A DNA stretch of 64,000 nucleotides from Methylocystis sp. H62 (GTDB lineage Bacteria; Pseudomonadota; Alphaproteobacteria; Rhizobiales; Beijerinckiaceae). The position numbers were made by a program, and so were the translations under genes. Shown here in pieces: positions 3,882 through 43,339 of this stretch (positions within the stretch are counted from its first letter, which is position 1; every line of letters starts with the position of its first letter). Under the pieces are notes generated by a model that did no database searches, was not told the origin of the DNA, and was given only the letters and a program-made list of their open reading frames with translations. The stretch is from positions 152,639-216,638 of the forward strand of contig NZ_JADNQZ010000054.1 of assembly GCF_015709515.1 (NCBI RefSeq), in the 5' to 3' direction.

Positions 3882-3887
3882 CGCTGC

Positions 3888-4463: not shown

Positions 4464-4494
4464 GGTCTCTCCAGCTCTTGCATTCAATTAGCTT

Positions 4495-11861: not shown

Positions 11862-12941
11862 GTGTCGAGCTCGGTCGCCTCGGAACTGGCCCGCCGCCTC
11901 GCGCAAGAGGCTGAGGCGGTCTGCCGCCGGTATTTATCGAACGGTCGTCGCTCGGGCGGCTATTGGCTCGTCGGCGACATCAACAATACGCCGGGCCGCT
12001 CGCTTTTTGTGCGCCTGAATGGCAACGCATATGGAAGAACCGCCGCCGGCAAATGGGTGGATGCGGCGACGGGCGAGCACGGCGATTTGCTCGACGTCAT
12101 CCGCATCCGATGCAATTTGAGCAATTTCGGCGACGTGCTCGACGAGGCGCGGCGCTTGTTGAACAGCCCGCGATGCCACCCAGCACCCATGTCGACAAAC
12201 CCTACTTCGCTCTCTCCGACCGGCTCTTCCGAGTCGGCGCGCCGATTGTTCCATATGTCGTACCCGATCGCGAGCACGCTGGCGGAAGCCTATCTCAGAC
12301 ATCGCGGCATCACGGTCTTTCTCGAAACAAGCGAGCTTCGCTTTCATCCACGCTGCTACTACCGCCCCGATCGACACGCGCCGACGCAGACCTTTCCGGC
12401 GCTGATCGCCGCTATCGCCGACGCGTCGGGCGCTATCGTCGGCGTTCAGCGCACTTGGCTCGATCCGTCTGGCAAGGACAAAGCCGCGATCGAAACGCCA
12501 AGGCGCGCCATGGGCCAGCTGCGCGGTCATGGCGTCAGGTTCGGATCCGTCGAGGACACTGCGGCGGCCGGTGAAGGCGTCGAGACCATGATGTCGCTTC
12601 GGTGTGCACTACCGCGCCTGCCTATGATCGCGGCGCTCTCCGCCAGCAATCTGGCGGCCCTGTCGCTCCCGCCGACTTTGCGCCGCCTCTACATCGCGCG
12701 CGACAATGACGCCGCCGGAGACGATGCGACGGACCAACTCGCGCAACGCGCTTCATCAGCCGGCATTGAGACGATCGTCCTGTCGCCGATGCTCGCCGAC
12801 TTCAACGACGACCTCCGCCTTCTCGGTATCGCCGAACTTCTTGCGGCGCTGCGAACGCAGCTCGCTCCTGAAGATGTCGTTCGCTTCATCCCACGAATGT
12901 CAACGCACAGCGCGGTCGGTTGGCCGACGGTCCAAATCTGA
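11862..12941 (+). CDS. Toprim-domain primase-like protein
   Basis: A 359-residue protein resembling plasmid DNA primase/helicase-type Toprim proteins. The N-terminal part (about 1-95) contains RSLFVRLNG and KWVDAATGEHGDLLDVI, typical of DUF7146-like primase-associated domains. The C-terminal Toprim domain (about 225-330) has the expected acidic residues in AAGEGVETMMS and in RLYIARDNDAAGDDATDQL. It probably serves ICE replication or transfer. GTG 11862 is preferred because GGAGG is eight bases upstream. A hairpin (CGCCAGAGATGGCG) followed by a T-run at about 11820-11845 lies between the ParB gene and this start. Confidence 0.82.
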   Translation: MSSSVASELARRLAQEAEAVCRRYLSNGRRSGGYWLVGDINNTPGRSLFVRLNGNAYGRTAAGKWVDAATGEHGDLLDVIRIRCNLSNFGDVLDEARRLLNSPRCHPAPMSTNPTSLSPTGSSESARRLFHMSYPIASTLAEAYLRHRGITVFLETSELRFHPRCYYRPDRHAPTQTFPALIAAIADASGAIVGVQRTWLDPSGKDKAAIETPRRAMGQLRGHGVRFGSVEDTAAAGEGVETMMSLRCALPRLPMIAALSASNLAALSLPPTLRRLYIARDNDAAGDDATDQLAQRASSAGIETIVLSPMLADFNDDLRLLGIAELLAALRTQLAPEDVVRFIPRMSTHSAVGWPTVQI

Positions 12942-13230
12942 CGGCGCAATCGACGAATTGCTCGTGGCGATCCTGATCGCCGAAAGGGCCGCGCCTGCGG
13001 CCTTCAAAAGGGGTTGGTCCTGCGGCAAGCGATCCGGCGCCGCAACGGCGGACGGCAACTATTTTCCGCCGCACCCTCAAGGGCGCTTTGCAGCGCGAAA
13101 CAAAATAGCCGCCGCCCGCCATCCTCCGCTGCGCTACGGCCGCTGCGCGGTGCGCGCCGGCTCTTGCTTGCCGCTTCGGACGCCCATGAAGGCCGCGAAG
13201 GGCGCGGCCAATCCGGCAAAGAGCAACACC
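12942..13230 (+). other. Non-coding leader before the DUF2493 gene
   Basis: No gene is supported in this 289-base gap, although the upstream reading frame stays open. A GC-rich segment near 13118-13141 (core TCCTCCGCT) resembles one at about 19196-19218, and each lies about 90-97 bases ahead of an ICE gene start. This may be a shared regulatory leader or the trace of a duplicated backbone piece. Confidence 0.35.
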
Positions 13231-14169
13231 ATGACAGTCCATTCCGATGATTTGCGCTCGGCTTCGTCGCTCTCGACGTCCCCAACTGGGCGCGTTCTCA
13301 CCGAGTTGCAGCTCTATGGCTTTCGTCCCTTCGAGGGCGAACCCGACCCTCGGCAATTGCCGGAAGCGCAGTCTATCGCCGGCGCGGTCGCGGACATCTT
13401 CGACGCGCTCGTCTCGACGTTGTCAGATACCCGTCTCGAACCGGATATCGAAGATCTGCTGTGGTCGACGGTCAATATCTTTCATCGCGCCGTGCTGCGG
13501 ACCGAACGTGGGCTCGCCGACAATGAAGCCGCCCAAAAGCGCAGCCAGAGCGAACAAGACGGCTCCGAAATCCGTTCCGTGGAATTGGAGCGTCTGATCG
13601 CCGAAGGCGTCACCCTCATCGAGCGCCGCGACAGCATGGAGCTTTTCCGCGACGAGGCCGCCAATCAATTCGAGCGCCATACCGGCTCGGCCTGGCGACC
13701 CCGGTCGGGTTCCAGAGTCAATCACCGCGCTTTGACCTCCGCGATGATCGACAGCCGCGATTTTATCGCCGCCAAACGTCGCGCCGATTCCGACGCACTT
13801 CTTCCCCCCGGTCCAAAAATCGCCTTTACCGGCGGACTCGATTTCAACGATCATCGGGCAATCTGGGATCGTCTCGACAAGGCTCTCGCGAAACATCCCG
13901 ATATGGCGCTATTGCACGGCGGATCGCCTAGGGGCGCCGAACGCATCGCCGCCTGCTGGGCCGAGAACCGCGCGGTTCCGCAGATCATCTTCAAACCCGA
14001 CTGGAAGCGTCACGCCAAGGCTGCGCCGTTCAAGCGAAACGACCACATGCTCGCGACGCTGCCAATCGGCGTCATCGTCTTTCCCGGGTCAGGCATCTCC
14101 GCCAATCTCGCCGATAAGGCGCGAATGCTCGGCATCCCGGTATGGAAATTCATCGATGGCGGCGCATGA
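13231..14169 (+). CDS. DUF2493 domain-containing protein
   Basis: A 312-residue protein whose C-terminal third (about 200-310) matches DUF2493, a Rossmann-like fold related to SLOG nucleotide-binding proteins: IAFTGGLDFNDHRAIWDRLD, LLHGGSPRGAERIAACWA, and the FKRNDHMLATLPIGVIVFPG stretch. Such proteins are common on alphaproteobacterial ICEs and plasmids, where they follow the Toprim gene; their ligand is unknown. The N-terminal two thirds are helical and variable. ATG 13231 is chosen from the family length. The next 155 bases look like a truncated backbone segment, with a short open frame (MNYPHHATGS) ending near the 3' end of the STAND gene. Confidence 0.82.
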   Translation: MTVHSDDLRSASSLSTSPTGRVLTELQLYGFRPFEGEPDPRQLPEAQSIAGAVADIFDALVSTLSDTRLEPDIEDLLWSTVNIFHRAVLRTERGLADNEAAQKRSQSEQDGSEIRSVELERLIAEGVTLIERRDSMELFRDEAANQFERHTGSAWRPRSGSRVNHRALTSAMIDSRDFIAAKRRADSDALLPPGPKIAFTGGLDFNDHRAIWDRLDKALAKHPDMALLHGGSPRGAERIAACWAENRAVPQIIFKPDWKRHAKAAPFKRNDHMLATLPIGVIVFPGSGISANLADKARMLGIPVWKFIDGGA

Positions 14170-14324
14170 ACGTCACAACCTCACGCCATTCAGAGGATTG
14201 AAACCTATGAACTATCCGCATCACGCGACCGGCTCTTGATCGTCAGACCCTCCGATAGCCAAGCGCTGTATCTCAAATCGACGACTGCTTCTGACCCGAA
14301 GCGGACGCTACTGGCGAGCAGTGG

Positions 14325-17300
14325 TCAAGCGTTCCATTGAGCATCCCGCTCATCATCGTCGCGCTTAGCGGCTTCGACCTTCTTGCGAATTTGCAAGTGT
14401 GCTTCTCTCGCCCAGCGACGGAGAGAGCCGATAGGGTGGTCGAAGAGCGAACGCAGCGGCTCTTCATAGAGGGCATAGTAGGTCGTGAGAGAGCCAGTCC
14501 AGCCGAAGGTGTGCATGTTCTGTGTAAGGTAGCGGCGCACGTCATCGCGGTCGCCGAACTCGTTTAGAAGCCGGGTCATCAATGGATGGAACGTGCGGTC
14601 GGCGCCTTCGGCACGGGTTGTTAGAACTGGCAGAACACGCGCCAGAAATGCGGGGCCTGCGTCCGGATGGGCGTGAGCCCAAGCAAACAGAACGTCTTCC
14701 GGTAAGTGCAGGATCGCAGGCTGCTTTCTGTCGGCGAACGAAAAACCATCACCAAGCGCGTGTTCAATCAGCCAAGCCGCAGCTCGGTCCTGCACAATCG
14801 CATTCCCCAACGGCGGCCACACAGTCGAAGCGAAGTTCTTCATCATGATCGGCAACAGCGGTTTGATAAGGTCCGCTGCGTTGCCGTCGGGTTCGGATGC
14901 GAGGTACGACGCGAGCGTGCCCGCTGCCGCGCGCGCATCAGCGTCATCGTGCCCCTTCCTGAGTAGCCAACCGACAATGTGCTCGAAGTGGTGAGCATCC
15001 CTTTGCGAGCCCCGTCGCTTTGGCCGTTTGCTAACGTTCTGGACCGCCAGCATCACCTGTGGCCGGAGCTCATTCAGGCGATCAAGTTTCCCGTGAACGA
15101 ACATTCCCATCACGTCGAGAGCGACCGAATAGCCAATCCCATTCATCGTGAGGAGTTGATCGAACAACGGCGCAGCTGAGGTCGCGTCGAGCTTTGCGAG
15201 CACACCGCCGAACCCCCAGTGTGACATTGCACCCGGAGGCAAGATGCCCGCTTTGAGACTTTCACAGACAAGACGAACATCATTCGCCGTGATGCCGATA
15301 AGTAGGCAGACGAACGGCAGCGTGTGCGCATAGACCCTCGAATGAACCGCTTCGCGCTTGTATGCGGCGACCGCCTCCGGCTTTCGCGTTGCCAGGCCCG
15401 AGTAGTAGCCCGCGACCAATCCATAATTTCGGCTGTCATCGGCGACAGAAGCGTAGGCGCTTTTGATCGGCTCTTCCCATAACAGCGGATCATCCGCCAT
15501 CTCGGCAATCGCTTTGCCGAACTCAACTGACATCCGCTGCTCGCCAACAGACAGGTCGGCTAGGCACCCGCGCAATGCCTCCGGCTGCGTCAGCATCTCG
15601 CGCGCTAGATCGCGCACGATTTCAACCTGTCGCTTTCCGCGCTCGTCGAATTCGAGATCCTCGTCGACCGGATAGTCCCAAGGCATCTCGGTGACAAGAA
15701 AGCGGACGCGGCTCGCCGCATCCAGCGGAGAAAGATCAGCAATGAGTTTGCGGACACGTTCTTCTTCGCCTTCCTTGAGCCCGCTCAGGTCGTATTGGAG
15801 GACATCGCCCAGGGCATTCAAAGCTGCTGGCCAATACGGATGAACCGCCCTGGTGCGCGCTACCCAGCGTTCGATTTGTTCGATTTGGCCCCCGCCAATG
15901 TAGGAGCGAAACTGATGGGCAATGCCATTTCGTGCTCGGGCGCCGATCGCGTCGTCGCGCAGGCCAAGGTCAACCAGCCTATCAACACACGCGATGATGT
16001 AGTCCCAAGCGTCACTCCAATATTTTGGCTGCCACGGAATTAACTGCGGCCGACTGCCGTGCGTTCCAGGACCCATCATCCGCGCGTGCGAGTGCATGCT
16101 CGATGCTTCAAGTAATGCGTCCACCACGAGTGCCATTTGCATCGGATCGTTGGCTTGCAGCAATTCATCAAGGAGTTGAAGGCGAGGCTTTGCGGGCGCT
16201 GTCGTGTTGGCGCCGAGTACCGGAAAGAGCGCCTTAAATTGCCCGACCGAGTTGTCACCCCAAGTTTCGTTTTCAGCGACGGCTAGCTTTAGCAGCAACA
16301 GCGCACCGCGCTCGAAGGTGTTCTCAATGAAGGAGATGTTTTCCAGCGCATGAACAAGCCCACGACGCAAGTCGCCATCGATGCGCTTTAACTCTTCGAC
16401 GGTGAGCGGGTTCAGTATCCGCTGCAGAAGTGTGACCACGGCCGCGGCGTCGATCTCAGACATGGCGCTTAAAACGTCAGGGCTGCCCTTGCGATTGAGG
16501 GCTGTCAGCGACGCAAACGGTCCATCGAGACGCATCGCGTGGCGCGCGACCTGGGGACCGATGTCTTGCGTGTTCAACAGCGTGAGCTGATTCGCCACGT
16601 TCTTGCGCAACCGTTCCGGCAAATCGCCTGCTAACACCTCGTCCCATCTGGCTTGGCCCCATTGCCGCCACTGGCGTTCAGCAAGCTTAAGCGCAAGGGG
16701 CTTGGGCTGAAGGCTCGCTAGGCGTCCGTGTTGCTGCACGACGCCGCGTTCCTGAAGATCAGCCAAGGCGGCGCGCAGGTCTTCGGGAGATCGGTCTCGC
16801 GTGAACTTGGCGACGTGCGCAAGGTCGTCCAGTTCGTCGGTCGTGCCAAGGAGCCTAAAAGCGCCGAGCAACATGCCGGCATCTTTCAGCAAGGCGGGAT
16901 CTAACGGTTTCCGCCCAAGCAGAATACGATCGATTAGTTCATCGTTTGTGGCGGCGGCAATGGGCATATCGTTCAGCCACGCCTGACCAAGCAAGGTTGC
17001 CATCTGCGGGAAACCGCGCGCGAACTTTAGGAGCCGGCGATGATCTTCGCTCGGCAAGTCGGGAGCGATCTGCTTGATCATCCCCTCCACGACGGCGTCG
17101 GCAGCCGGTTCAACCATCAACAGCTCGTCATCACCTTTCAACGACGGCGGCACTTCGTGATCGATCGTCACTAGCGAAATCCGGCTGCCGGTCCGCTTCA
17201 CCATCCCGACCAGGTCATGGTGCGAATCCAAGGAGCAGCGGTCCACAACGACGATCGCCCGGAAGCCGGAATCGACGAGATTCTGAATGATGTTCTTAAT

Positions 17301-18356
17301 AGCCACCGATCCTGCTTCAGATTCCACCGTATAGAGAACCAGATCGCAGAGCCGCGCGCCGGAAGTCTCTTCTTCGTCCGTAGGGCCGAGGGCTTCGTGC
17401 GTGAGCCGCGACTTGCCAACGCCCGAAAGGCCAACGACTCGAGCGACGCCTCTCGGCTTCGCTACAAGAGAGCGCAGCTTCTCGCGGAACGCTGGCAAGC
17501 GAGCATCTGAAATCCAGGGCGATGCGTCGTAGCGACCAGCCCAATGGGTCCAATCCTTAAGTGGTCCGACGAGTCCCGGCTGGGTCTGCTCCAGTACCCA
17601 GGCCGCAACGGGCGGCAAGGAATTCACCCAAGAGGCAATCTGGTCGGCATCGCGGAACTGGACTTGGTCCGGACGAATCTTGAGTCCGGCCTTGGCAAGC
17701 GCCTCCCGTATGCGATCGGCCCGCGCCTTGACGAGTTTGTTTTCGTACGAATGGGCGCACGCCATAATGTAGCAGCCGCCCTGCGCTAGGGCGTCGCGCA
17801 CCATCACCTTCACCTCGCCAGCCGGCGTCAACAGATCGTCGCCCGCTTCTTTGGGTGTGATTGGGCCGGCCTTCAGCTGAAACTGCGAGATGCGGTTCGG
17901 CAGGAACTTGGTTCGCTCGGGCTCGCCCTGCCATTCGATGCGCGCATCCTCTCCCCCGTCGGCAGCGGTGATGTTTGCCGCCACGTGGATTCCGTCCATG
18001 GGCAAGTCACCGCTGAAGGCCTCGCCGTCCAGCAGCCGCCGCGTTAGGAGAACCAGTTTTCGTGGACTCAACGCCGCGATGTGCCTGCCGGTCACCTCAA
18101 ATAGCCGCGTGTCGTCCGATTCCATCGGTGCGACCTTTCCCCCGGACAACGTGATGATGGCGGAAGGCTTGACATCCAGCAGGCGCAACAAGTTCGCGGT
18201 CGCCGTCGTCGGCTTGATGGTGCCGCTCTCGTATTTCGTGAAGGCGCGGGGCCCACCACCCAAGAGCTCTCCCGCCTCGACCTGGGTCAGACCGATCTTC
18301 TCCCGGATACGCCGGATTTCTGGTGGCGAAAGTTCGCCCGAGGCTTTTAGTTCCAT
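14325..18356 (-). CDS. HTH-nuclease-like-STAND NTPase fusion, candidate defence protein
   Basis: A 1343-residue single gene in four parts. Residues 9-60 form an MqsA/XRE-type helix-turn-helix (IRREKIGLTQ-like, GGGPRAFTKYESG) without the zinc domain of MqsA. Residues about 80-255 look like a PD-(D/E)XK-like fold, with Asp in DARIEW (137) and QLK (160-162). Residues about 300-560 form a STAND-type NTPase with Walker A GLSGVGKS (309-316) and a Walker B-like VVVDR (near 370). The rest is a long helical C-terminus without a recognised family. This layout matches STAND/Avs-type anti-phage proteins by family knowledge: a sensor at the C-terminus, an NTPase switch and an N-terminal effector. It lies in the opposite direction to the ICE backbone, between the DUF2493 and DUF736 genes, as cargo. 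Defence is an inference. Confidence 0.75.
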   Translation of the reverse strand: MELKASGELSPPEIRRIREKIGLTQVEAGELLGGGPRAFTKYESGTIKPTTATANLLRLLDVKPSAIITLSGGKVAPMESDDTRLFEVTGRHIAALSPRKLVLLTRRLLDGEAFSGDLPMDGIHVAANITAADGGEDARIEWQGEPERTKFLPNRISQFQLKAGPITPKEAGDDLLTPAGEVKVMVRDALAQGGCYIMACAHSYENKLVKARADRIREALAKAGLKIRPDQVQFRDADQIASWVNSLPPVAAWVLEQTQPGLVGPLKDWTHWAGRYDASPWISDARLPAFREKLRSLVAKPRGVARVVGLSGVGKSRLTHEALGPTDEEETSGARLCDLVLYTVESEAGSVAIKNIIQNLVDSGFRAIVVVDRCSLDSHHDLVGMVKRTGSRISLVTIDHEVPPSLKGDDELLMVEPAADAVVEGMIKQIAPDLPSEDHRRLLKFARGFPQMATLLGQAWLNDMPIAAATNDELIDRILLGRKPLDPALLKDAGMLLGAFRLLGTTDELDDLAHVAKFTRDRSPEDLRAALADLQERGVVQQHGRLASLQPKPLALKLAERQWRQWGQARWDEVLAGDLPERLRKNVANQLTLLNTQDIGPQVARHAMRLDGPFASLTALNRKGSPDVLSAMSEIDAAAVVTLLQRILNPLTVEELKRIDGDLRRGLVHALENISFIENTFERGALLLLKLAVAENETWGDNSVGQFKALFPVLGANTTAPAKPRLQLLDELLQANDPMQMALVVDALLEASSMHSHARMMGPGTHGSRPQLIPWQPKYWSDAWDYIIACVDRLVDLGLRDDAIGARARNGIAHQFRSYIGGGQIEQIERWVARTRAVHPYWPAALNALGDVLQYDLSGLKEGEEERVRKLIADLSPLDAASRVRFLVTEMPWDYPVDEDLEFDERGKRQVEIVRDLAREMLTQPEALRGCLADLSVGEQRMSVEFGKAIAEMADDPLLWEEPIKSAYASVADDSRNYGLVAGYYSGLATRKPEAVAAYKREAVHSRVYAHTLPFVCLLIGITANDVRLVCESLKAGILPPGAMSHWGFGGVLAKLDATSAAPLFDQLLTMNGIGYSVALDVMGMFVHGKLDRLNELRPQVMLAVQNVSKRPKRRGSQRDAHHFEHIVGWLLRKGHDDADARAAAGTLASYLASEPDGNAADLIKPLLPIMMKNFASTVWPPLGNAIVQDRAAAWLIEHALGDGFSFADRKQPAILHLPEDVLFAWAHAHPDAGPAFLARVLPVLTTRAEGADRTFHPLMTRLLNEFGDRDDVRRYLTQNMHTFGWTGSLTTYYALYEEPLRSLFDHPIGSLRRWAREAHLQIRKKVEAAKRDDDERDAQWNA

Positions 18357-18367
18357 GCAACACCACC

Positions 18368-18410
18368 ATGGTCACTTTAATGCGCTTTACACCATTATGG
18401 TCACCTAATG
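18368..18410 (-). promoter_or_regulatory. Repeat operator upstream of the STAND gene
   Basis: Two direct copies of ATGGTCAC..TAATG (18368-18382 and 18397-18410) lie 12-54 bases before the start codon. The second sits in an inverted repeat, CCATTA at 18392-18397 and TAATGG at 18406-18411, around GGTCACC. Since the protein begins with an MqsA-like DNA-binding domain, this is the likely site of autorepression. No experiment supports it yet. Confidence 0.45.
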
Positions 18411-19314
18411 GATTTTATCGCCGATCGCAATGATTTTTTAGGGCGTGTCACGCCGTCGAAGCCGAGAAACTCTCGTTGGCGCTACAGATCGCTTGTCGGA
18501 AGCATAAGCGGCGGCTTGCGCAGGTCTGCTCCGCTTCCGTCGCCAGAGCCGCCCGTGGACAGTTTGTCCGAAGGTGGGTTGGCGGCCACCGCACTCGCGC
18601 CCGAACCAATGTCCGTTCATGGCGCTAAGCGGAAATGCACTACTGTGGCGATTCCTGAGCGGTTTCTTTGTCCGGCGTGCCGGCTTCGATTATCGTAGCG
18701 GTGGCGCTGCGGCCGATTGGTGTGTCAAGGAAACCCGCGGATGCTCAGCCTTATATTTCATCAACGTCATCGCATTCGCTATTCGGCGTGGCTTCTGTTC
18801 AATCTCACGGTTCGTGCGCGTACCAACCGCTGGCGGGTCGCTGGGCGCTTGTAGGCACGTTGACGGACCGATTAGACTCGCCGGCCGCATTTTCCTTCTT
18901 CTAGGCAGATATGTTCGAAGCGACCTATCCCTGACGCCGCCGCCTTTTCGTGCGCTGCTACTTCTTTTCCCTCGCTTTGAATTCTGCCGGTCTTGTGCTT
19001 TTTCCCTCTCGTTGGCGAAGTCATTCATAGAGGTTGCTGTCTGGCCAGCTACGACCATCACGACCTCTCTTATGGCTTCATCTGGCCGAAGACCGGCTCC
19101 GCCTCGATCGCCATAGCCGCAACAGCATAGGCGCAACCTTCTTCCCCTGACGCCTGCGGCGTCATTCCTCGCGAAGCAAGAAAGCCGCGCCCATGCCGTC
19201 CTCCGCTTCGCTGCGGCCCTGGGGGTGCGTCGACGAATCGCCTTCGGCTGCGAAGCGCCATCGAGGCCGCGATGGTCGCGGGCTCGAAGACAGCAGAACC
19301 TAAGGAGACTTACA
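18411..19314. other. Long region without a supported gene
   Basis: About 900 bases between the STAND gene promoter and the DUF736 gene. Open frames occur on both strands, but none has recognisable domains, good starts or the codon pattern of the neighbours. The last 200 bases are GC-rich and include the segment shared with the leader of the DUF2493 gene (about 19196-19218). They are probably an untranslated leader of the DUF736 gene. Confidence 0.4.
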
Positions 19315-19638
19315 ATGGCGAACATCGGCTCTTTCAAGAAGTCCGGCAATGAATTCCTCGGCGAAATCGTGACGCTCAGCGTCCAGGCCAAAGGCGTCCG
19401 CATCGTTCCGGAAGCCAACCGTTCTAACGATAACGCCCCGAGCCACCGGGTTTTCGTCAGACGCGCGGAAATCGGCGCCGCCTGGTCCAAGCGCTCGAAC
19501 GAGGGTCGCGACTATCTCTCGGTCAAGCTCGACGATCCGAGCTTCACGGCTCCGATTTACGCCAATCTCTTCGACGACGAGGATGGCGACGGCCACTCGC
19601 TGATCTGGTCGCGGGGGCGGAAGCCGAATGGAGACTGA
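19315..19638 (+). CDS. DUF736 family protein
   Basis: A 107-residue DUF736 protein, a very common small protein of alphaproteobacterial plasmids and ICEs with no assigned function. Hallmarks are the start MANIGSFKKSGNEFLGEI, the SHRVFVRRAEIGAAW core and the DYLSVKLDDPSFTAPIYANL end. AAGGAG lies seven bases before the ATG. It is followed by a GC-rich hairpin, which suggests a single-gene transcript. Confidence 0.9.
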   Translation: MANIGSFKKSGNEFLGEIVTLSVQAKGVRIVPEANRSNDNAPSHRVFVRRAEIGAAWSKRSNEGRDYLSVKLDDPSFTAPIYANLFDDEDGDGHSLIWSRGRKPNGD

Positions 19639-25162: not shown

Positions 25163-26902
25163 ATGGCCAGCGATGACGATATCCGCATTCGTCCCGAGCG
25201 CATTCGGCAGACGAAGCCCGGAAAGGTAAAGTCTTTCGTTTCCCGCGTGTTGGCCGCGACGCAGAAGGCGGGCGGACTAAATCGTTCGAGTTCACACGGA
25301 AAGGGACGCCACGCTTTCGGTCGTGGCCGCGCCGCGAGCTTCTCCGCGCTGCGCGGACTGACCTCCCGACCGCGAATTGTGGTGGTGAAGGCCCGTGTGG
25401 TTCGACATCGCGGAAAGTCGATGTCCCTCGCGGCGCATCTTTCCTATCTGCGTCGCGACGGCGTCACGCGCGATGGCGCGCCCGGAAAAATGTTTGATGC
25501 CAGTGGCGATGGCGTTGACGTCAAGTCCTTCACCGAGCGATGCCAGAGCGATCGCCATCACTTTCGCTTTATCGTCGCGCCGGATGACGCGATGGAGCTT
25601 AGCGACCTGCGGGCCTTCACGCGGGATCTCATGGCCGACATGGCGCGCGATCTTGGGACCAAGCTCGACTGGGTCGCGATCGACCATTGGAACACCGAGC
25701 ATCCGCATATCCATGTCCTCTTGCGCGGACGCGCCGATGACGGCGCCGATCTCGTCATCAGTCGCGACTATATCAGCCGGGGTCTTCGCGCCCGCGCCGA
25801 GCGGCTCGCCACCCTAGAGCTCGGTCAACGCAGCGAACAAGAGATTCGCCAATCGCTCGAACGCCGGGTCGACGCCGACCGCTGGACGCCGCTTGATCAG
25901 GCGCTGGCCCGCGAAGCCGGGGAAAGGGACGGCCTCATTGATCTCCGGCCGGATGTGGAACAGGCGAACGACATGGAGCGAAGCCTCCTCGTTGGACGGG
26001 CGCGCAAGCTGGAGAAGCTCGGTCTCGCCGCCCCCGTCGGCGTGGGCAAATGGGTGATGGCCGAGGAGGCCGAGAGCGTGCTTCGCAAGCTTGGAGAACG
26101 CGGTGACATCATCAAGCGGATTCATCAAGGCCTCGCCGCCCAGGGCGTCGATCGTGCGACGGGCGATTTCTGCTGGGACGGCGAAACGCGCGGCGATCCG
26201 ATCATCGGACGACTCATCTCGCGCGGCCTCGACGACGAATTAAAGGGCTCCGCCTTCGCGATCGTGGATGGCGTCGACGGTCGCACCTATCACCTCCGCT
26301 TCAACGACATCGATGCGACGGGTGACGCCGCTCCAGGCGCGATTGTCGAAGTTCGACGCCTCACATCTGGCGACGATCGGACAGCGCGTCTTGTTCTCGC
26401 CGTTCGTTCCGATCTTTCCATTGAAAATCAGATCGACGCGAACGGCGCTACCTGGCTTGATCGACGCCTCGTCGCCAAAGAGTCTATGCCGATATCGGAA
26501 TCGGGCTTTGGTCAGGATGTCCGTGACGCGATGGAGGCGCGGGCCGACCACCTTATCGCCGACGGGCTTGCCAGGCGACAAGGTCAGCGACTGGTCTTCG
26601 CCAGCAATCTCATCGAAACGCTGCGCGCTCGCGAGCTGAACGAAGCGTCCGCCCGACTCACGTCCGAGACCGGCTTATCCCAACATTCGGTCACCGAGGG
26701 AGATTCCGTCGCTGGCGTCTATCGGCGGCGTGTGACCCTGGCGTCCGGTCGCTACGCCATGATCGATGACGGGCTCGGCTTCAGTCTTGTCCCTTGGACC
26801 CCTTCGCTCGAAAAGCAACTTGGACGGCAGGTGTCAGGCGTGCTGGGCCCAGGGGGCGGCGTGGACTGGAGCTTCGGTCGCAAGAGAGGCATCGGTTTGT
26901 AG
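25163..26902 (+). CDS. rlxS: Relaxase RlxS (VirD2-like, DUF3363)
   Basis: A 579-residue relaxase that nicks the transfer origin and leads the strand into the recipient. The N-terminal catalytic part (about 65-215) has the conserved HLSYLRRDGV with its Tyr, the HHFRFIVAPDDA block and the histidine triad IDHWNTEHPHIHVLLRG (about 173-189). The C-terminal half is DUF3363 (LGLAAPVGVGKWVMAEEAE and following). This is the relaxase type of ICEMlSymR7A and related elements. It lies directly after the candidate oriT region and before traG. Confidence 0.9.
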   Translation: MASDDDIRIRPERIRQTKPGKVKSFVSRVLAATQKAGGLNRSSSHGKGRHAFGRGRAASFSALRGLTSRPRIVVVKARVVRHRGKSMSLAAHLSYLRRDGVTRDGAPGKMFDASGDGVDVKSFTERCQSDRHHFRFIVAPDDAMELSDLRAFTRDLMADMARDLGTKLDWVAIDHWNTEHPHIHVLLRGRADDGADLVISRDYISRGLRARAERLATLELGQRSEQEIRQSLERRVDADRWTPLDQALAREAGERDGLIDLRPDVEQANDMERSLLVGRARKLEKLGLAAPVGVGKWVMAEEAESVLRKLGERGDIIKRIHQGLAAQGVDRATGDFCWDGETRGDPIIGRLISRGLDDELKGSAFAIVDGVDGRTYHLRFNDIDATGDAAPGAIVEVRRLTSGDDRTARLVLAVRSDLSIENQIDANGATWLDRRLVAKESMPISESGFGQDVRDAMEARADHLIADGLARRQGQRLVFASNLIETLRARELNEASARLTSETGLSQHSVTEGDSVAGVYRRRVTLASGRYAMIDDGLGFSLVPWTPSLEKQLGRQVSGVLGPGGGVDWSFGRKRGIGL

Positions 26903-27046
26903 GAGCGTTGCCGAATGGGCTCTCACGGCATCCCTTGGCGCGGACCGCTTGGTCTCCTCCGGTATTTGTGCGCTGTGGCGCGCCGATCTGCGACGCGAGG
27001 TTAATTTTCCTTGCAGACACAAAACTGGAAGCCACAAGCTGGCGTT

Positions 27047-29041
27047 ATGTCGGCAACGCGCATCCTCTGGGACCAGATCTTAATCGTCTTCGCCATTGTG
27101 CTCGCGACGACGTGGAGCGCGACGCAATGGACGGCCTGGCGATTGGCGTTCCAACCGGAATTGGGCCCGCCCTGGTTTCTACTCGGAACATGGCGACTCT
27201 ATCCGCCGCCGGCTTTCTTTTGGTGGTGGTATCACTTCGACGCCTATGCGCCCGATATTTTTGTCGAAGGCGCCGTCATCGCCGCATCGGGCGGCTTTGC
27301 TTCCATCGCGGTCGCCATCGGCATGTCGGTGCATCGCGCCGGCGAAGCTAAGAACGTTGTCACTTATGGTTCTGCCCGCTGGGCGACGCCGGAAGAAGTT
27401 CGACAGGCGGGGCTTCTCGAATCAGATGGCGTCATGCTCGGAAAATTCGAGGACAAATATCTGCGCCATGACGGACCCGAGCATGTCCTGTGTTTTGCTC
27501 CAACCCGTTCTGGCAAGGGCGTCGGCCTAGTCGTTCCGACGCTTCTTACCTGGCCCGGGTCCATCATCGTCCATGACATCAAGGGCGAGAACTGGTCCCT
27601 TACCGCCGGCTGGCGTGCGCGATTTGGCCGCGTGCTGCTGTTCGATCCAACGAACGCCAGCTCCTCTACCTACAATCCCTTGCTCGAAGTTCGGCGCGGC
27701 CCCGCGGAAGTGCGAGACGTCCAGAATGTCGCCGATATTCTTGTTGACCCGGAAGGGGCTCTTGAGCGACGCAATCACTGGGAAAAGACCAGCCATTCGC
27801 TTCTCGTCGGCGCCATTCTTCACGTCCTTTATGCCGAACCCGAAAAGACGCTCGCGGGCGTCGCCAACTTCCTCTCTGATCCGAAGCGCCCAATCGAAAC
27901 GACGCTGCGAGCCATGATGACGACGCAGCATCTTGGCGCGGCCGGCCCGCACCCGGTCGTCGCTTCAACCGCCCGCGAGCTCCTCAACAAATCCGAGAAT
28001 GAACGCTCAGGCGTACTTTCCACCGCAATGTCTTTTCTTGGTCTCTATCGCGACCCCGTCGTCGCTGAGGTCACGCGCCGCTGCGACTGGCGCATCGCCG
28101 ACCTTGTCTCCGGGGAGACGCCCACAACGCTGTATCTCGTCGTTCCCCCGTCCGACATCTCGCGGACCAAGCCGCTCGTGCGCCTCGTGCTCAATCAGAT
28201 CGGCCGTCGGCTGACGGAGGAGCTGGAGTCAAGGGAGCGCCGGCATCGCCTACTGCTCATGCTCGATGAGTTTCCGGCGCTCGGCCGGCTCGACTTCTTC
28301 GAATCCGCGCTGGCCTTCATGGCTGGCTATGGACTGAAAAGTTTCCTCATCGCCCAGTCGCTCAATCAGATCGAGAAGGCTTACGGCCCCAACAACGCCA
28401 TTCTCGATAATTGCCACGTCAGAGTGTCCTTCGCGACCAATGACGAACGCACGGCCAAGCGGGTCTCAGACGCGCTCGGCACCGCAACCGAAATGCGGGC
28501 GATGAAGAACTACGCCGGCCATCGTCTCAGTCCATGGCTTGGACATTTGATGGTGTCGCGTCAGGAAACCGCGCGTGCGCTGCTGACGCCGGGCGAGGTG
28601 ATGCAATTGCCGCCCGATAACGAAATCGTCCTTGTCTCCGGCCTACCGCCGATCAGAGCAAAAAAAACGCGCTATTACGAGGACCGCCGATTGGCGGCGC
28701 GAATTATGTCGCCGCCGGCGCCCCGCCCCGTCCGCGCGTCCGCGGCGCCCATGATGGCAGGCAACAGCATAACCAAGGACGATTGGACCGCGTTGCGGAC
28801 ACCGCAACCGAAAACGCCAAGCGACGAGGATTTCGCCAACTGCGGGATCCGCCGTGAACCTGAGCTCCCCGAGCACGAAGACATCGCGCTTCCAGAACCA
28901 AATTTGGTGCTGAAACCAGAAGTCTTCCTTGTCGAAGACGCGGATGACGACGAGGCGATCAGAGCTCGCATTCTACGAGCTCAATCTCGCTCGCTGGCGC
29001 GACAGGCGACGATGGACCCCGATGACGGCATAGCGCTGTAG
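27047..29041 (+). CDS. traG: Coupling protein TraG (VirD4-like)
   Basis: A 664-residue inner-membrane ATPase that links the relaxase-DNA complex to the Trb channel. Two N-terminal helices (about 5-25 and 70-95) are followed by Walker A APTRSGKGVG (about 151-160), a TraG-type HDIKGENWSLTAGWR segment and Walker B LLLMLDEFPALGRL. The acidic C-terminal tail is variable. ATG 27047 is preferred to a TTG 36 bases upstream because it fits the family N-terminus. The CopG-type gene starts nine bases after its stop. Confidence 0.93.
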   Translation: MSATRILWDQILIVFAIVLATTWSATQWTAWRLAFQPELGPPWFLLGTWRLYPPPAFFWWWYHFDAYAPDIFVEGAVIAASGGFASIAVAIGMSVHRAGEAKNVVTYGSARWATPEEVRQAGLLESDGVMLGKFEDKYLRHDGPEHVLCFAPTRSGKGVGLVVPTLLTWPGSIIVHDIKGENWSLTAGWRARFGRVLLFDPTNASSSTYNPLLEVRRGPAEVRDVQNVADILVDPEGALERRNHWEKTSHSLLVGAILHVLYAEPEKTLAGVANFLSDPKRPIETTLRAMMTTQHLGAAGPHPVVASTARELLNKSENERSGVLSTAMSFLGLYRDPVVAEVTRRCDWRIADLVSGETPTTLYLVVPPSDISRTKPLVRLVLNQIGRRLTEELESRERRHRLLLMLDEFPALGRLDFFESALAFMAGYGLKSFLIAQSLNQIEKAYGPNNAILDNCHVRVSFATNDERTAKRVSDALGTATEMRAMKNYAGHRLSPWLGHLMVSRQETARALLTPGEVMQLPPDNEIVLVSGLPPIRAKKTRYYEDRRLAARIMSPPAPRPVRASAAPMMAGNSITKDDWTALRTPQPKTPSDEDFANCGIRREPELPEHEDIALPEPNLVLKPEVFLVEDADDDEAIRARILRAQSRSLARQATMDPDDGIAL

Positions 29042-29050
29042 GAAACCTAC

Positions 29051-29482
29051 ATGGCGGTGAAGCAGCGCCTTTCCGTCTATCTCGACGCCGACATGATGGC
29101 GCAGCTCGAAAAGCTTGCAAGCAAGGAACGCGCAGCGAAGTCTTCGATCGCGGAAGCCGCGATCATTTCGTTCCTGACGGCGGACGATGCCGACCGCTGG
29201 GAAGCCGCAGTGACGCGCCGGCTCGATCGCCTAACGCGCTCCGTTGATCGCCTTGAGCGTGATCTTGAATTCTCCGTCGAGGCGCTCGCGCTCTATGTCC
29301 GCGCCTGGCTCACCGCGACGCCGCCATTGCCCGAAGGTACGCAGCCGGCGGCGCAAGCCAAGGGACGAGAACGCTACGAGAGTTTTATCGAGGCGTTGGG
29401 GCGAAGGATGGCTAAAGGACAAAGACTGACAAAAGAAATCTCGGAGGAATTCCAGTCCGAAACTGCTGGCGAGATTTCGTGA
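29051..29482 (+). CDS. CopG-type ribbon-helix-helix protein
   Basis: A 143-residue protein with an N-terminal ribbon-helix-helix (about 3-45: QRLSVYLDADMMAQLEKLAS, then SSIAEAAIISFL), a coiled-coil-like middle rich in Arg and Leu (about 52-72), and a tail. In related ICEs this gene sits between traG and trbB and is annotated as a CopG-family regulator. Here the cargo block begins just after it, so it no longer neighbours trbB. Confidence 0.85.
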   Translation: MAVKQRLSVYLDADMMAQLEKLASKERAAKSSIAEAAIISFLTADDADRWEAAVTRRLDRLTRSVDRLERDLEFSVEALALYVRAWLTATPPLPEGTQPAAQAKGRERYESFIEALGRRMAKGQRLTKEISEEFQSETAGEIS

Positions 29483-29960
29483 AAGGTCGCACTGAGATCA
29501 CGGGACTGCAAGGCATCAATCAACCCAGGCACGGTGAGCATCATGCCATAGTTTACGTCCGGTGAGCTGTTCCGTCGGGTCCGGAAACATGGATTGCTAC
29601 CGCCACTTCCACGCCGTTAAAAGCACCGGCCCACCGCCCAGCTGGGTGTCGACGCCATAGCAGATCGTGTTCGCCTGATTGCCGCTCCCCTGAAGAGGTC
29701 CGGTTGCCGTCTGTTGCGTCTGATTGTACTTATTGAGGGCCCCGACGCGCCGTAATTTCGGCGGAGGGCCATCGGCGCCATAGCCGGTGACTCCCGGGCC
29801 ATTGGCCCTTGGTTAGAAACACGAGATTCGATGTCGAAGTGATCCGAACGAAGGCCCCTTGCCGTGCAACTGCCCCCCATAGGATCAGCGACGAGTACGG
29901 CTCAGTCGTTGGCGCCGTATTCGTAGTCGGCCAACCTCAATTTATAGATGTCATCAGGGT
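29483..29960. other. Left edge of the cargo block, degenerate sequence
   Basis: About 480 bases without an intact gene. On the minus strand at about 29600-29815 one frame reads as a short protein-like stretch (GVTGYGADGPPPKLR, then GSGNQANTICYGVDTQLGGG) cut at both ends. It looks like a gene remnant of unknown family. The change from orderly backbone to remnants marks where foreign DNA was inserted between copG and trbB. Confidence 0.35.
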
Positions 29961-30305
29961 TGTACGCAGCGGCGCAATAGTCGGCCATTGAGCGTCGCAT
30001 ATTGCGGCCGCGTGGCGGCGTAAAGTCCGCACAGTTTTAGGCTGACTTCCCGAACATTGATTCGGGAGGGCGGCCGGGGACGGTGGAGATTTACGCGGCG
30101 GCTCGACGCTTTGTTTTCATTGAGGGCAATAGCCAGCGCGAAGCGGCGCGCGTGTTTGGACTGAGCCGGGACACGATCGCGAAGATGTGCCGCCATTCCG
30201 CACGGCCGGATTACGTGCGCACAAAGGCGCCGAAGCGGCCGAAGCTCGGGCTGCTGCTCACGGTGATTGACGCGATCCTGGAGACGGACAAGACTGCTCC
30301 GCAGT
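29961..30305 (+). mobile_element. IS21-family remnant (left end and N-terminus of istA)
   Basis: The frame from 30083 encodes an IstA N-terminus: YAAARRFVFIEGNSQREAAR, FGLSRDTIAKMCRHSARPDY and KLGLLLTVIDAILETDK, the helix-turn-helix region of IS21 transposases. Similarity stops near codon 74, where the sequence turns into unrelated DNA. Upstream, from about 29961 (TGTACGCAGCGG), lies a sequence like an IS21 left end. No catalytic core and no istB are present, so this is a dead fragment. Confidence 0.72.
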
Positions 30306-30502
30306 GCAAGCCGACATCAGTGGTCAGATTGCTCTTTTCATCCCAAGAGACGGCGTCGGTCACCCAGCGGCGGCCAGCAAGACACGTTTCGGACGGGCCT
30401 GCACACCCCTGGGCCTCCAGCCTTAATGATGAGCTACCCGTTGAAATGATCCGCCTGCAAAAGCCTGTTCCCTTCACATCCCCCAGATCGACCCAAATTG
30501 GT

Positions 30503-31513
30503 TCAATTCTGCTCCGCTTCGGCCAGGCATTGTGCGAGATCGTCATAGCCATACAAGAGCGCCAGCTCCCTTGGCGTCAGGCCTGCGTGCGATCTCAGGT
30601 CCAGGCGCGCGCCAGCGGCGATGAGCGCTCGCGCCGCTTCCAGATGGCCGTGCCAGACCGCATCGTGCAGCGCTGTCAAGCCGTTGTAGGCACCCTGCGC
30701 ATCCAACTCTGACGCTGGCCCAACAGCGCGAGTGCGCTTTTCCGTTAGCGCCTGGATGACCTCGGCGTGCCCGAAATAACTCGCCTCGTGGACCGGCGTG
30801 CCCCGCATCAATCCGATGGCCCGTCGCGGGTCCGCTCCCGCGTCCAGCAGTAAGCGCACGATGTCGGCCCGGCCTTGACGAGCAGCGATGCCAAGCGAGG
30901 TATAATTGTCGTCGGGGCTCCCCACGATCGGCGCCCGTTCGTCAACGCAGGCGCCGTTCGCAAGCAGCCGCTTGACCTCGCCGATGTCGCCTGCCTTGAC
31001 TGCCCCCATCAGCGCAAGCGCACCTATCTGCTTGGTGTGAGCCTCCTCTTGCGCCTCGATCAGACGCGCGATCGCGTCGAGCTTGTCCTCTCTCGCAAGG
31101 TCGAGGGCTGTTTGCCGCCAATGGTTGCTGATTGCCGCTCGGGCGCCCCGCTCCAGGAGAAGTCGGACCGCCTCCACGTGCTTGTGCAGCACCGCATCCA
31201 TTAGCGCAGTATTTCCGAGGACGGGAGACTGTTGATCGATAAAGGCGCCATGGTTCAGGAGTAGCCGGATGACGTCGGTATTGCCGGATTGCGCCGCCTT
31301 GTGAAACGCCGTCGCGCCCATCCTCGGCTCTATCACGTGGACCTCCGCACCAGCCGTGAGCAGAAGTTCGACCAATTGCGACTGGCCGAGTCCGGAGGCG
31401 ACCATTAGCGGCGTGAAGCCCTCGGGGCCGCGGCGGTTTACTTCGGCGCCTGAGCGGAGACTGTCGATAACACCCGCAAGGTCGCCGGCCCGGACCGACG
31501 CTTCGAGCGTCAC
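30503..31513 (-). CDS. Ankyrin-repeat protein
   Basis: A 336-residue protein made almost wholly of ankyrin repeats, about eight units of roughly 33 residues (for example GFTPLMVASGLGQSQLVELL, GNTALMDAVLHKHVEAVRLL and LTALHDAVWHGHLEAARALI). No signal peptide or enzyme domain is visible, so a cytoplasmic protein-binding role is likely. The start is GTG at 31513, which overlaps the stop of the upstream hydrolase gene by four bases (GTGA); the two are therefore translationally coupled, although their link in function is unclear. Confidence 0.85.
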   Translation of the reverse strand: MTLEASVRAGDLAGVIDSLRSGAEVNRRGPEGFTPLMVASGLGQSQLVELLLTAGAEVHVIEPRMGATAFHKAAQSGNTDVIRLLLNHGAFIDQQSPVLGNTALMDAVLHKHVEAVRLLLERGARAAISNHWRQTALDLAREDKLDAIARLIEAQEEAHTKQIGALALMGAVKAGDIGEVKRLLANGACVDERAPIVGSPDDNYTSLGIAARQGRADIVRLLLDAGADPRRAIGLMRGTPVHEASYFGHAEVIQALTEKRTRAVGPASELDAQGAYNGLTALHDAVWHGHLEAARALIAAGARLDLRSHAGLTPRELALLYGYDDLAQCLAEAEQN

Positions 31514-32481
31514 GTGGGAGTTCCGTCAGATGAACCGATAGCGCCGAGGAATTTGACAAGCTCGGCGTTGACGCGATCGGCCGCCTCGTGCTGGAGCCAA
31601 TGGCCGGCATTCTCCACGCGGACGACGTCGAGCAGGCCAGGCTGAGATTGCTGAAGCTGCGAGGCTGTGGGTGGCTCAGGATGAAACAGCCGGCAGAGGC
31701 CATCGTCAGCGCCCCAGATGTAGAGCGTGGGCTGCCGGATGACTGCATTCTTGAACGCCGCCGTGAGATCGAACGACGTCTGCATGGCGCGGTAGTAATT
31801 GAGCCCGCCGCGAAAGCCCGTCCTATCGAACGAGCGAATCGTGTGTTGGACGTATGCCGGATTCGCCCAACTCGGCACACCGACCGGAGAAGGCCGTAGC
31901 ATGTGCTTGGTCGGGTCGATCGGGTCCCATCTCTCGTCGGGTCGCGGGCTTGCCGAAAGCCAGTACAAAACGCTCGGTATCGTTCTCGGAGCGTCCGCGT
32001 AGCGGATCTCGGCGTCGGGCTCCATCATGTCGAACGCATAGTAGCGATTGCCCAGGCCTTTCCGGCGAAGCTCGTCCCAGAAACTGATCTCGCCACGGGG
32101 CGCAAAAGGAATGCTCAAGCTGACGAGCGCGCGAAATCGGTCGGGCCGCATCAGCATTGCGCGCTGGGCATGGTCGGCGCCCCAGTCGTGGCCGACGAGA
32201 ACGGCCGACTTGATCTCGAGAGCGTCGAGCACGCCCACGAGGTCGCCTACGATGTGCAGGGAGCTGTAAAGATTGACGTCCGGGGGAGCATAGCTTTCGC
32301 CATAGCCCCGCATGTCGATCGCCACCGCGCGATAGCCCGCCTCTTCAACAGCGCGCATTTGGCTGCGCCAAGTCTCCGCCGTGTCAGGAAAGCCGTGACA
32401 GAACAGAACGGCGGGGCCCTGACCCCGGTGGATGACATGGAATGGTGCGCTGTTGACTTGCACCTGCGCCATTTGAGCCAT
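31510..32481 (-). CDS. Epoxide-hydrolase-like alpha/beta hydrolase
   Basis: A 323-residue alpha/beta hydrolase similar to soluble epoxide hydrolases and haloacetate dehalogenases. It has the oxyanion motif HGFPD (29-33), the nucleophile Asp99 in VGHDWGADHA, the cap-domain tyrosine region LNYYRAMQ and the catalytic His in ENAGHWLQHE. An Asp nucleophile fits epoxide or haloalkane hydrolysis rather than esterase action. It sits in a minus-strand group with an SDR, 36 bases downstream of it, and an ankyrin gene that it overlaps. The likely substrate is a xenobiotic or small aliphatic epoxide, but this is inference. Confidence 0.86.
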   Translation of the reverse strand: MAQMAQVQVNSAPFHVIHRGQGPAVLFCHGFPDTAETWRSQMRAVEEAGYRAVAIDMRGYGESYAPPDVNLYSSLHIVGDLVGVLDALEIKSAVLVGHDWGADHAQRAMLMRPDRFRALVSLSIPFAPRGEISFWDELRRKGLGNRYYAFDMMEPDAEIRYADAPRTIPSVLYWLSASPRPDERWDPIDPTKHMLRPSPVGVPSWANPAYVQHTIRSFDRTGFRGGLNYYRAMQTSFDLTAAFKNAVIRQPTLYIWGADDGLCRLFHPEPPTASQLQQSQPGLLDVVRVENAGHWLQHEAADRVNAELVKFLGAIGSSDGTPT

Positions 32482-32517
32482 GCTCCGCCTTTGCTCCGAT
32501 CAGAGTCTGTCTTCTGA

Positions 32518-33255
32518 TCAATGAAACGTCGCCCCACCATCGACGACTATGATCTGGCCGGTAACGAAGCAGGCCGCCTCGCTCGCTAAAAACAGGCAGG
32601 CGCCGACGAGATCCTCCGGCCGCTCCTCGCGCGCGATCGCGCGCGACGCAATGACGCCCGCCAGCATCTCCTCTGAATAATCCTTGTTGCGTCGTATGCC
32701 TCCGGTCACGGTGAGGCCGGGCGCGATGGCGTTGACGGTGATGCCGTCACGGCCGACTTCCGCTGCGAGTGAGCGCGTCATCGCAACGATCGCTCCTTTG
32801 CTCGCAACGTAATGCAGCATGTATGGGGTGCCGACAAAGACCGTGGCCGAGGTCAGATTGACGATGCGCCCCCATTTCTTTTTCCGCATACGCGGGATGA
32901 CCGCCTTGCTGCAGAGGAACTGGCTAAGCGTATTGACGGTCAGAACGCGCGTCCAATCCTCCGGCGTGATCTGCTCGAAGGGCTTGGGCGAGATCTTCGC
33001 CGCCAGCGCGGCATTGTTGACCAGGATATCTACGCCTCCCTGACCCAGCTCTATCTGATCAATGCATGCCTGGACGCTGGAAGGATCGGCGACATTGCAA
33101 TGAACCCGCCGAACGCCGGGCGGGCTTGCGTCTTTCTTCCACGCGATGTCGGCGCCGATCACCTGCGCCCCCTGCGCCGCAAGCTCCTTTGCGATGACGG
33201 CGCCGATGCCCGTGGCCGCACCAGTGACAAGCGCGATTTTTCCTTCAAGGGTCAT
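32518..33255 (-). CDS. Short-chain dehydrogenase/reductase
   Basis: A 245-residue classical SDR that uses NAD(P). The cofactor motif is TGAATGIG (about 11-18), NNAA follows near 89, and the catalytic Ser, Tyr and Lys are in LTSATVFVGTPYMLHYVASK. The C-terminal VTGQIIVVDGGATFH is typical of FabG-like members. It is the first gene of a tight minus-strand set with an epoxide-hydrolase-like enzyme and an ankyrin protein. Oxidation of a diol or alcohol made by the hydrolase would fit, but the substrate is unknown. Confidence 0.87.
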   Translation of the reverse strand: MTLEGKIALVTGAATGIGAVIAKELAAQGAQVIGADIAWKKDASPPGVRRVHCNVADPSSVQACIDQIELGQGGVDILVNNAALAAKISPKPFEQITPEDWTRVLTVNTLSQFLCSKAVIPRMRKKKWGRIVNLTSATVFVGTPYMLHYVASKGAIVAMTRSLAAEVGRDGITVNAIAPGLTVTGGIRRNKDYSEEMLAGVIASRAIAREERPEDLVGACLFLASEAACFVTGQIIVVDGGATFH

Positions 33256-33429
33256 GGCGTAAAGCTCTTCTGGTCATGCGCTGAGCGCGCCGCTCGTCAT
33301 CCGCAAGGAGGCCGAAAATAAGCTCAACGGTTCGACCGCCTGTCGGCTGGCAAATCCCGTGATCAGAAAGAACGAAAGTTGCTCCCGGTCGGTTCCCAAT
33401 GGGTCCCGCCGCTTATTCATATCGGGTAC

Positions 33430-33592
33430 GTCGCGTTCCTCATGCTGGCTAGCCCCTCGGCGCCCGTGCTGCTGGCGTTGTAGGCGATCGCGACGGTCGC
33501 GCCGTCGGCCGCGAGCCGTTCAGCGATCGCCCTACCGATTCCGCGCGAACCTCCGGTCACGAGCGCGGTTTTTCCATGGGGGCCTGCGACAT
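33430..33592 (-). pseudogene. Truncated SDR gene fragment
   Basis: On the minus strand the frame GKTALVTGGSRGIGRAIAER continues to about 52 residues of an SDR N-terminus and then meets unrelated sequence and a stop. The ATG with the expected start context (33592) is in a different frame, so there is also a frameshift near 33560. This is a dead copy, distinct from the intact SDR gene next to it. Confidence 0.7.
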
Positions 33593-33840
33593 AAGAATCT
33601 CCTCGTTACGCGAGATGCGATTTCTGTGATTGCGGGGTGAGCTTGCGCGGCAGTTCATGCGTTCGCGGACGATCGGCCCCGGGTTTGCCTCGGTGACCGT
33701 GAGAGCCAGGCGAACGAGATCAGCGTCACCGCGCCATATTCATGGTGGGTCACGTGGTGCTGCGGAACACCGACCTGCTCCAGTTAACGGGCGCCCCTCA
33801 GGGGCCCGGCGCGCGCTGGCCAGACAAAGAGCCCAAGAAA

Positions 33841-34512: not shown

Positions 34513-34594
34513 AACAGTTCCTTTCGGTTCGAGTCCCGTAACCGGGATCGAAGTTGTCCTTTCGACCGAGAATCTAAGTCACTTAAACAATCTG

Positions 34595-34614
34595 ATAAGA
34601 TCGGAAGCCGTTAT
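34595..34614. promoter_or_regulatory. Possible LysR-type binding site
   Basis: The inverted repeat ATAA-N12-TTAT lies in the 131-base gap between the divergent GST and LysR genes. LysR-type proteins commonly bind interrupted dyads in such divergent regions. The match is short and could be chance. Confidence 0.3.
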
Positions 34615-34643
34615 GCCTTCTATTCTTGTTTGGAATGAAAGTG

Positions 34644-35549: not shown

Positions 35550-35649
35550 GGCTAGGGCGTCAGGCAGCGAACGGCTCAGGAGTGGCCTCGCACAGGAGGA
35601 CGCTGACCAGGCCCTTTTTGTCGGTCCACTCTGCCATTGGCGAAGATCC

Positions 35650-36175: not shown

Positions 36176-36354
36176 GCCCTTCCTGAATTGTTGTCAGACC
36201 CGCCCGCGATGGAGGGGTGGCGTTCGGCTGGTGAACATCGGTGGGGAGGCCGGATTACACCTGCTGCCTGATCTGAACAGATCGGCTTCTGTGATGTACT
36301 GGGAAGGATGGCGAAAGGGCCTCCGGTTCACGCGTCCCGAGGCCCCACGTCGGT

Positions 36355-39754: not shown

Positions 39755-39766
39755 GGGAAAGCCTCC

Positions 39767-42942: not shown

Positions 42943-42954
42943 GGGCGCGCCGCG

Positions 42955-43335: not shown

Positions 43336-43339
43336 GGCT

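Follow-up and report, generated by a model that had tools for sequence, protein, structure and literature searches.

The anti-phage system PD-Lambda-4 was found by experimental selection for phage resistance in Escherichia coli (Vassallo et al. 2022, PMC9519451), and a P-loop NTPase domain is listed for it in a table of another paper. The antitoxin MqsA is described as a repressor of its own operon, acting in E. coli and Pseudomonas putida at an ACCT-N3-AGGT operator whose spacer letters seem irrelevant, and its residues Asn97 and Arg101 are reported to matter for DNA binding (PMC5422877); the toxin MqsR is reported to remove it from its DNA (PMC4803016; derepression also in PMC5422877). In Caulobacter, the toxic NLR-like system LypABC is reported to be repressed at its promoter by the XRE-type helix-turn-helix (HTH) protein CdxB (PMC13236601). 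Here, we analysed a 64,000-nucleotide stretch of Methylocystis sp. H62 (hereafter the window), which carries a gene with features reminiscent of all three. This gene (14325..18356, minus strand) encodes a protein of 1343 residues made of an MqsA-type HTH, a PD-(D/E)XK-like domain, a STAND NTPase and a helical C-terminal half. No description of an MqsA-HTH/STAND fusion was recognised among the open-licence papers listed by the literature searches.

The reading to which we give a probability of about 0.58 is that the gene encodes a PD-Lambda-4_A-like protein of the STAND type, likely a receptor against phage, and that the MqsA-type HTH of this protein would bind two palindromes at its own promoter and thereby repress its own gene. 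The defence part of this reading is based on the layout, the family and the neighbouring genes, and the self-repression part on the promoter palindromes. Judged by sequence, the core is PD-Lambda-4_A-like and thus belongs to an already catalogued defence family; the new part would be a predicted receptor carrying a repressor-type domain together with matching palindromes at its own promoter.

The MqsA-type HTH and the promoter palindromes

The HTH covers residues 9-66 (18159..18332, minus strand). Pfam MqsA_antitoxin matches residues 10-65 (E 1.2e-12), the NCBIfam TIGR03830 match exceeds its cut-off and the solved E. coli MqsA HTH aligns with residues 9-66, all in agreement with the MqsA-like HTH that an initial annotation of this DNA had placed at the front of the protein. 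Only profile positions 70-125 of the 131 in the Pfam model are matched, at the very start of the protein, and the N-terminal zinc- and toxin-binding half of MqsA is missing. The positions of Asn97 and Arg101 in E. coli MqsA are taken here by R37 and K41 in the alignment, and the recognition-helix residues of this HTH are almost invariant. Databases give proteins of 1336-1343 residues the name 'type II TA system antitoxin MqsA family protein' or a similar one, which most likely stems from the HTH alone.

Two operator-like palindromes, 29 bp apart, precede the start codon. On the gene's strand, ACCATAATGGT (18391..18401) comes right after a promoter-like hexamer and ACCATGGTGGT (18362..18372) lies past the putative promoter, ahead of the start codon. 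This putative promoter, TTGCGA-N17-TAGGTG (18402..18430, minus strand), was not detected by a scan for the sigma-70 consensus. Its layout is the same in six of six scored loci (the pattern was written after inspecting the loci, and L030 was left out): TTGnnA, N17, a hexamer (TAGGTG, three times TAAGTG, TAAGGG or CATGTG), then palindrome 1 directly. A second copy follows 29-30 bp further in five of these six loci, once with a mismatch, and the bases between the palindromes vary among loci while the palindromes themselves stay.

A strict ACCA-N3-TGGT site was found in the 300 bp preceding the matched start in 7/7 HTH-fused loci vs. 0/42 HTH-less ones, counting distinct loci for which DNA was available, with repeats merged. 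Of the seven HTH-fused loci, four contain two strict copies; in L003 the second copy carries one mismatch, L110 has a single site, and L030 combines one strict site with a half site. Upon per-locus shuffling, one site was obtained in 0.3-0.5% of cases and two sites in none of 20,000. As for the 64 kb window as a whole, it holds only these two ACCA-N3-TGGT sites, for 0.25 expected, and two sites, wherever located, were reached in 2 of 100 shuffles. Concerning TGACCATNNTGGT, six sites are present in the window's genome and 18 in that of Bradyrhizobium ivorense, and in both genomes the only pair spaced by 29-30 bp is the one ahead of the HTH-fused gene. That the HTH might repress its own gene had been a guess of the initial annotation, and it has now gained sequence evidence of the operator type.

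The window palindromes share with the MqsRA operator the XCCX-N3 form and a position near the promoter or ribosome site, with one letter changed per half (ACCA-N3-TGGT vs. ACCT-N3-AGGT). Some free MqsA-like operons from the same order share the window palindrome: among 19 free MqsA-like loci, the strict ACCA form was found in four (L012, L022, L013 and L019) and a form with one mismatch in L010, the other 14 lacking both the ACCA and the E. coli form in the 450 bp covered. In L010, L012, L022 and L013, the site precedes a gene that, by eye, looks like mqsR. All four free MqsA-like loci bearing a GGGP helix fall among the five with a site. The data fit, but do not prove, a joint change of the contact residues (R37/K41) and of one operator letter; a lysine at the K41 position also occurs in several free MqsA-like proteins whose loci have neither site, so that the link between K41 and the changed letter is no more than suggestive.

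The HTH could instead work within the immune reaction, by placing the nuclease or by sensing invading DNA, the promoter sites being secondary. Such a role would suit a domain that adjoins the nuclease-like one, in a protein kept as a whole at 48-100% identity in the best 120 of at least 876 relatives. However, the palindromes occur in a fixed layout at the gene's own promoter, are found before none of the 42 HTH-less relatives and resemble those of a known own-operon repressor, which makes this alternative improbable.

Just past a tRNA-Lys gene, the window also holds a near-palindrome, CTGGTGACCACATGGTGACCAG (8091-8112), containing ACCA-N2-TGGT, i.e. operator-like with a 2-base spacer.

The PD-Lambda-4_A-like core and its relatives

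As the initial annotation had it, the gene is a single intact open reading frame (ORF) on the minus strand. Residues 85-1338 match the PADLOC model PD-Lambda-4_A (PDLC03991) with an E-value of 3.1e-81, and neither Pfam nor NCBIfam finds anything convincing outside the HTH. At least 876 relatives were retrieved by a protein search (E ≤ 1e-3), and no second copy was found in the 4.5 Mb genome of the strain at the same threshold. Two earlier claims have therefore to be given up, namely that of a candidate new defence system, since the core lies in a catalogued family, and that of a C-terminal half without known family, since this half lies within the PD-Lambda-4_A match. The protein is filed as PD-Lambda-4_A-like rather than as a PD-Lambda-4 system because component B was not found: PDLC03992 (PD-Lambda-4_B, the only B model searched) has no match across the whole genome, and ten neighbouring ORFs of the window gave no PADLOC match to PD-Lambda-4_B. 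An Enterobacter protein fills the whole PD-Lambda-4_A model and is 23% identical to residues 85-1014 of the window protein; its gene has no near match in E. coli genomes.

The PD-(D/E)XK-like domain spans residues 85-265 (17562..18104, minus strand). In alignment A3 (58 sequences, down to 26% identity), E112, D133, G135, E136, D137, Q160 and K162 are invariant, and the arrangement of the motifs (E112, D133-x-G-E-D137, Q160-x-K162) and the order of strands and helices in the predicted structure fit a PD-(D/E)XK domain. When compared alone with PDB sequences and Pfam (alignment A4), the domain gave chance matches and no nuclease family was named; the invariance seen in A4 is partly circular, the fragments having been chosen by motif pattern, and A3 was relied on instead. 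The domain is thus nuclease-like by its conserved motifs and predicted strand order. Profile searches, a check that the initial annotation had proposed, placed the C-terminal half in PD-Lambda-4_A and named no nuclease family for the nuclease-like domain alone, so that the PD-(D/E)XK proposal stands on motifs and strand order and not on profiles.

The STAND NTPase core and its winged-helix region extend over residues 268-603 (16548..17555, minus strand), with Walker A GLSGVGKS at residues 309-316, Walker B at about 366-374 and Walker residues invariant in the 58 sequences. In the predicted structure of residues 80-1279 (mean predicted local distance difference test score of 88.9), residues 268-603 align with NLR, apoptosome and ORC/Cdc6 NTPases, and the best aligned chains of the model are those of NLR resistosomes, Dark, CED-4, Apaf-1 and Cdc6/ORC. 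The STAND assignment made from the Walker A motif is thereby upheld, as is, by layout and structure alignment, the likeness to NLR- and Avs-type defence proteins. No Avs model, which we take to be included in PADLOC, was matched in a PADLOC search up to E 1, a search in which the HMMER filters drop weak matches. The C-terminal half (residues 604-1343; 14325..16547, minus strand) is an all-helical repeat in the model and is predicted to be the sensor, by analogy with STAND proteins generally.

All four parts of the protein (HTH, nuclease-like, STAND and C-terminal) are under purifying selection, with ratios of non-synonymous to synonymous substitution rates (dN/dS) of 0.02-0.12 over ten pairs among five genes (the window gene and four from Bradyrhizobium); in pairs with the window gene, dS is about 1-2.5, near saturation in most regions, and those ratios are rough.

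The HTH profile, which was built from the best 120 relatives, is matched by 116 of these same 120, the other four being 818-1274 residues long. A second search, with an HTH-less plasmid relative as query, returned 259 relatives, and none of the best 120 matches the HTH profile. Also, the 40 plasmid matches listed, out of 84, all begin at residue 77 or later; together with the HTH-less relatives, this places a module boundary near residue 80. Of 120 core sequences chosen for a tree, three lacked the anchor motif and were removed. In the midpoint-rooted tree of the remaining 117, all 38 MqsA-HTH proteins group in a single clade (support 1.0), whose sister clade comprises nine proteins bearing another HTH (support 0.992), and both are found within 70 HTH-less sequences. 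By these sequence comparisons, the HTH is a module added to the core and characteristic of one clade.

The nine sister proteins (P0143, P0147, P0150-P0152, P0156, P0158, P0187 and P0212) have a different, XRE-type HTH at their N-terminus. An independent second HTH fusion in this P0143 group was considered and rejected, since the two HTH clades are adjacent in the tree; one HTH capture followed by a change or exchange of the helix would be the simpler scenario. DNA of the P0143 group was not found in viral contigs, plasmids or 398 genomes of the phylum.

The genome surveys yielded few full-length HTH-fused genes. The window gene is the only one among 101 genomes of its kin and among 397 genomes of its order, and in 385 genomes of the class it is joined only by that of G145, a copy broken into two frames (L030/L038). 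In the genus of B. ivorense (265 genomes), four full-length HTH-fused genes and one 3'-end remnant (G923) were found; in its family (248 genomes, stricter cut-off), the HTH-fused gene was found in B. ivorense only. Viral contigs gave no match, and phage records gave one, covering the HTH alone.

Two proteins of a different build were observed. In a relative from L046 (1447-5385, minus strand), the N-terminus resembles, by eye, an alpha/beta hydrolase rather than the nuclease-like domain, pointing to effector swapping. On a Rhizobium leguminosarum plasmid (L007, 1819-5937, plus strand), a 1372-residue HTH protein with no clear Walker A is weakly alignable with the family of the window protein; its gene is followed, after 63 bp, by a PD-Lambda-4_A gene without HTH.

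Carrier element and neighbouring genes

The gene and its 5' region form a cargo interval (14173..19035) absent from related plasmids, flanked on the left by an ORF holding a DUF2493 gene (12706..14169, plus strand) and on the right by a DUF736 ORF (19225..19638, plus strand, E 4.3e-35). The carrier is taken as a conjugative element because of its conjugation genes (25163..47504, plus strand), which include those for a DUF3363 relaxase-type protein (25163-26902), TraG (27011-29041), TrbE (39767-42202) and TrbI (46263-47504), all on the plus strand. Plasmid homology breaks at 14165-14172 and returns at 19036-19060 in three plasmid stretches, those of the eight fetched that hold both flanks at the site. 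In Methylocystis parvus pMpar-1, it stops at 14165 and resumes at 19036, the flanks being 475 bp apart vs. about 4.87 kb in the window; in the M. heyeri and Indioceanicola plasmids, too, both flanks are present, with 0.9-1.2 kb between them. The cargo status given to the gene by the initial annotation is thus supported. The L003 homologue lies within 5 kb of two genes related to the window's element (80% over 75 residues for one, 40% over 198 for the other). The tRNA-Lys gene is located at 7969-8044, and a search of the window for a repeat of its end was negative.

PADLOC defence matches occur within about 8 kb in all five sibling loci with enough flank, their flanking proteins having been picked by eye in tens, several without a match. 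They are LmuB-like, SIR2 and Orf5/HEC-06 in L002; MkoA (E 9e-245), MkoB (5e-91), a PycC-like cyclase (8e-11) and a SoFic-like protein in L003; JetC and JetD (Wadjet) and an LmuB-like protein in L109; SIR2 and a GajB/UvrD-like helicase in L110; and AbiEi and AbiEii in L111. In the window itself, the ten ORFs tested with PADLOC gave nothing beyond general HTH matches.

The carriage by a conjugative element, the antitoxin type of the HTH and the 'antitoxin MqsA' names of the relatives would also suit a gene that serves the element as an addiction or toxin-antitoxin-like module, or one that regulates other genes, without a role in phage defence. Against this stand the missing toxin-binding half and the failure to find any free MqsA relative of this HTH in the window's genome. 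The other TGACCATNNTGGT sites of that genome are all single, and the one on contig C59, a perfect palindrome read on both strands, lies within an ORF. As the core family and the sibling-locus neighbours are moreover of the defence type, this explanation too is held to be unlikely.

Directly downstream of the HTH-fused gene, a SIR2-like gene is found in two Bradyrhizobium loci (L002, 11977-13584, plus strand; L110, 7004-8482, minus strand; 81% identical). It is a possible partner of the HTH-fused gene; no such gene adjoins the window gene. In L110, an HTH-less PD-Lambda-4_A-like gene (3167-6982, plus strand) and the HTH-fused gene are separated by about 1.6 kb, a stretch that holds the SIR2-like gene. 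Other genes of the window include a small HTH protein near the right flank of the insert (19732-20058), with restriction-control and CapH-type profile matches, an ankyrin-repeat protein between TraG and the trb genes (30503-31513), a PAS/GAF/HWE kinase (50938-54270) and a phytochrome-type histidine kinase (54679-56949), all on the minus strand.

Proposed function and comparison with known systems

In an uninfected cell, a few copies of the protein would sit on the ACCA-N3-TGGT sites and limit further synthesis; this would be important, as a STAND nuclease is likely toxic once activated. Upon infection, a phage product would be recognised by the C-terminal helical half, and NTP-driven oligomerisation of the STAND core would gather the PD-(D/E)XK-like domains, so that nucleic acid would be cut. 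The same rearrangement would detach the HTH from its operators, and detection would thereby also raise the supply of receptor. The receptor's own activation would then take the role that MqsR plays toward MqsA, whose lifting from DNA is the precedent for the predicted release. One polypeptide would thus be sensor, NTPase switch, nuclease and its own repressor: the capture would have taken in the DNA-binding half of an antitoxin along with the type of operator that goes with it, the NLR-like sensor replacing the toxin-sensing half, and activation would both fire the effector and lift repression in a self-amplifying manner. We regard this fuller scheme as an even bet. That the HTH and palindromes have ceased to act in an otherwise PD-Lambda-4_A-like defence protein is a very unlikely alternative: HTH-less relatives are widespread, and the HTH is therefore dispensable for the core, yet it is conserved like the rest (dN/dS 0.02-0.10), its recognition-helix residues are nearly invariant and the palindromes are kept though the spacers between them differ.

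If the self-repression reading holds, it would bear on the question of how a potentially lethal NLR-like receptor is kept ready yet harmless. A candidate answer, readable from the DNA, is a receptor that sets its own level through a built-in repressor and promoter sites, which would offer a compact model tying detection to supply and would show an exchange of parts between toxin-antitoxin systems and NLR-like immunity. As a warning, a database name like 'antitoxin MqsA family protein' can mask defence-family proteins of more than 1300 residues.

With component A of PD-Lambda-4, the window protein shares the order nuclease-like domain, STAND and long C-terminal half, but it differs by an extra N-terminal MqsA-type HTH with operator-like palindromes. 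The same three-part plan (nuclease-like effector, STAND switch and long C-terminal repeat half) is shared with Avs and bacterial NLR-like STAND proteins, from which it differs by the built-in repressor-type domain. With MqsRA of E. coli and P. putida, it has the HTH family in common, whereas the zinc/toxin-binding half is missing, the HTH is fused to a predicted receptor and the contact residues Asn97/Arg101 of MqsA correspond to R37/K41. Finally, the LypABC/CdxB precedent shows the usefulness of repressing a toxic NLR-like system; there, the repressor is a separate protein, whereas here receptor and repressor would be one and the same polypeptide.

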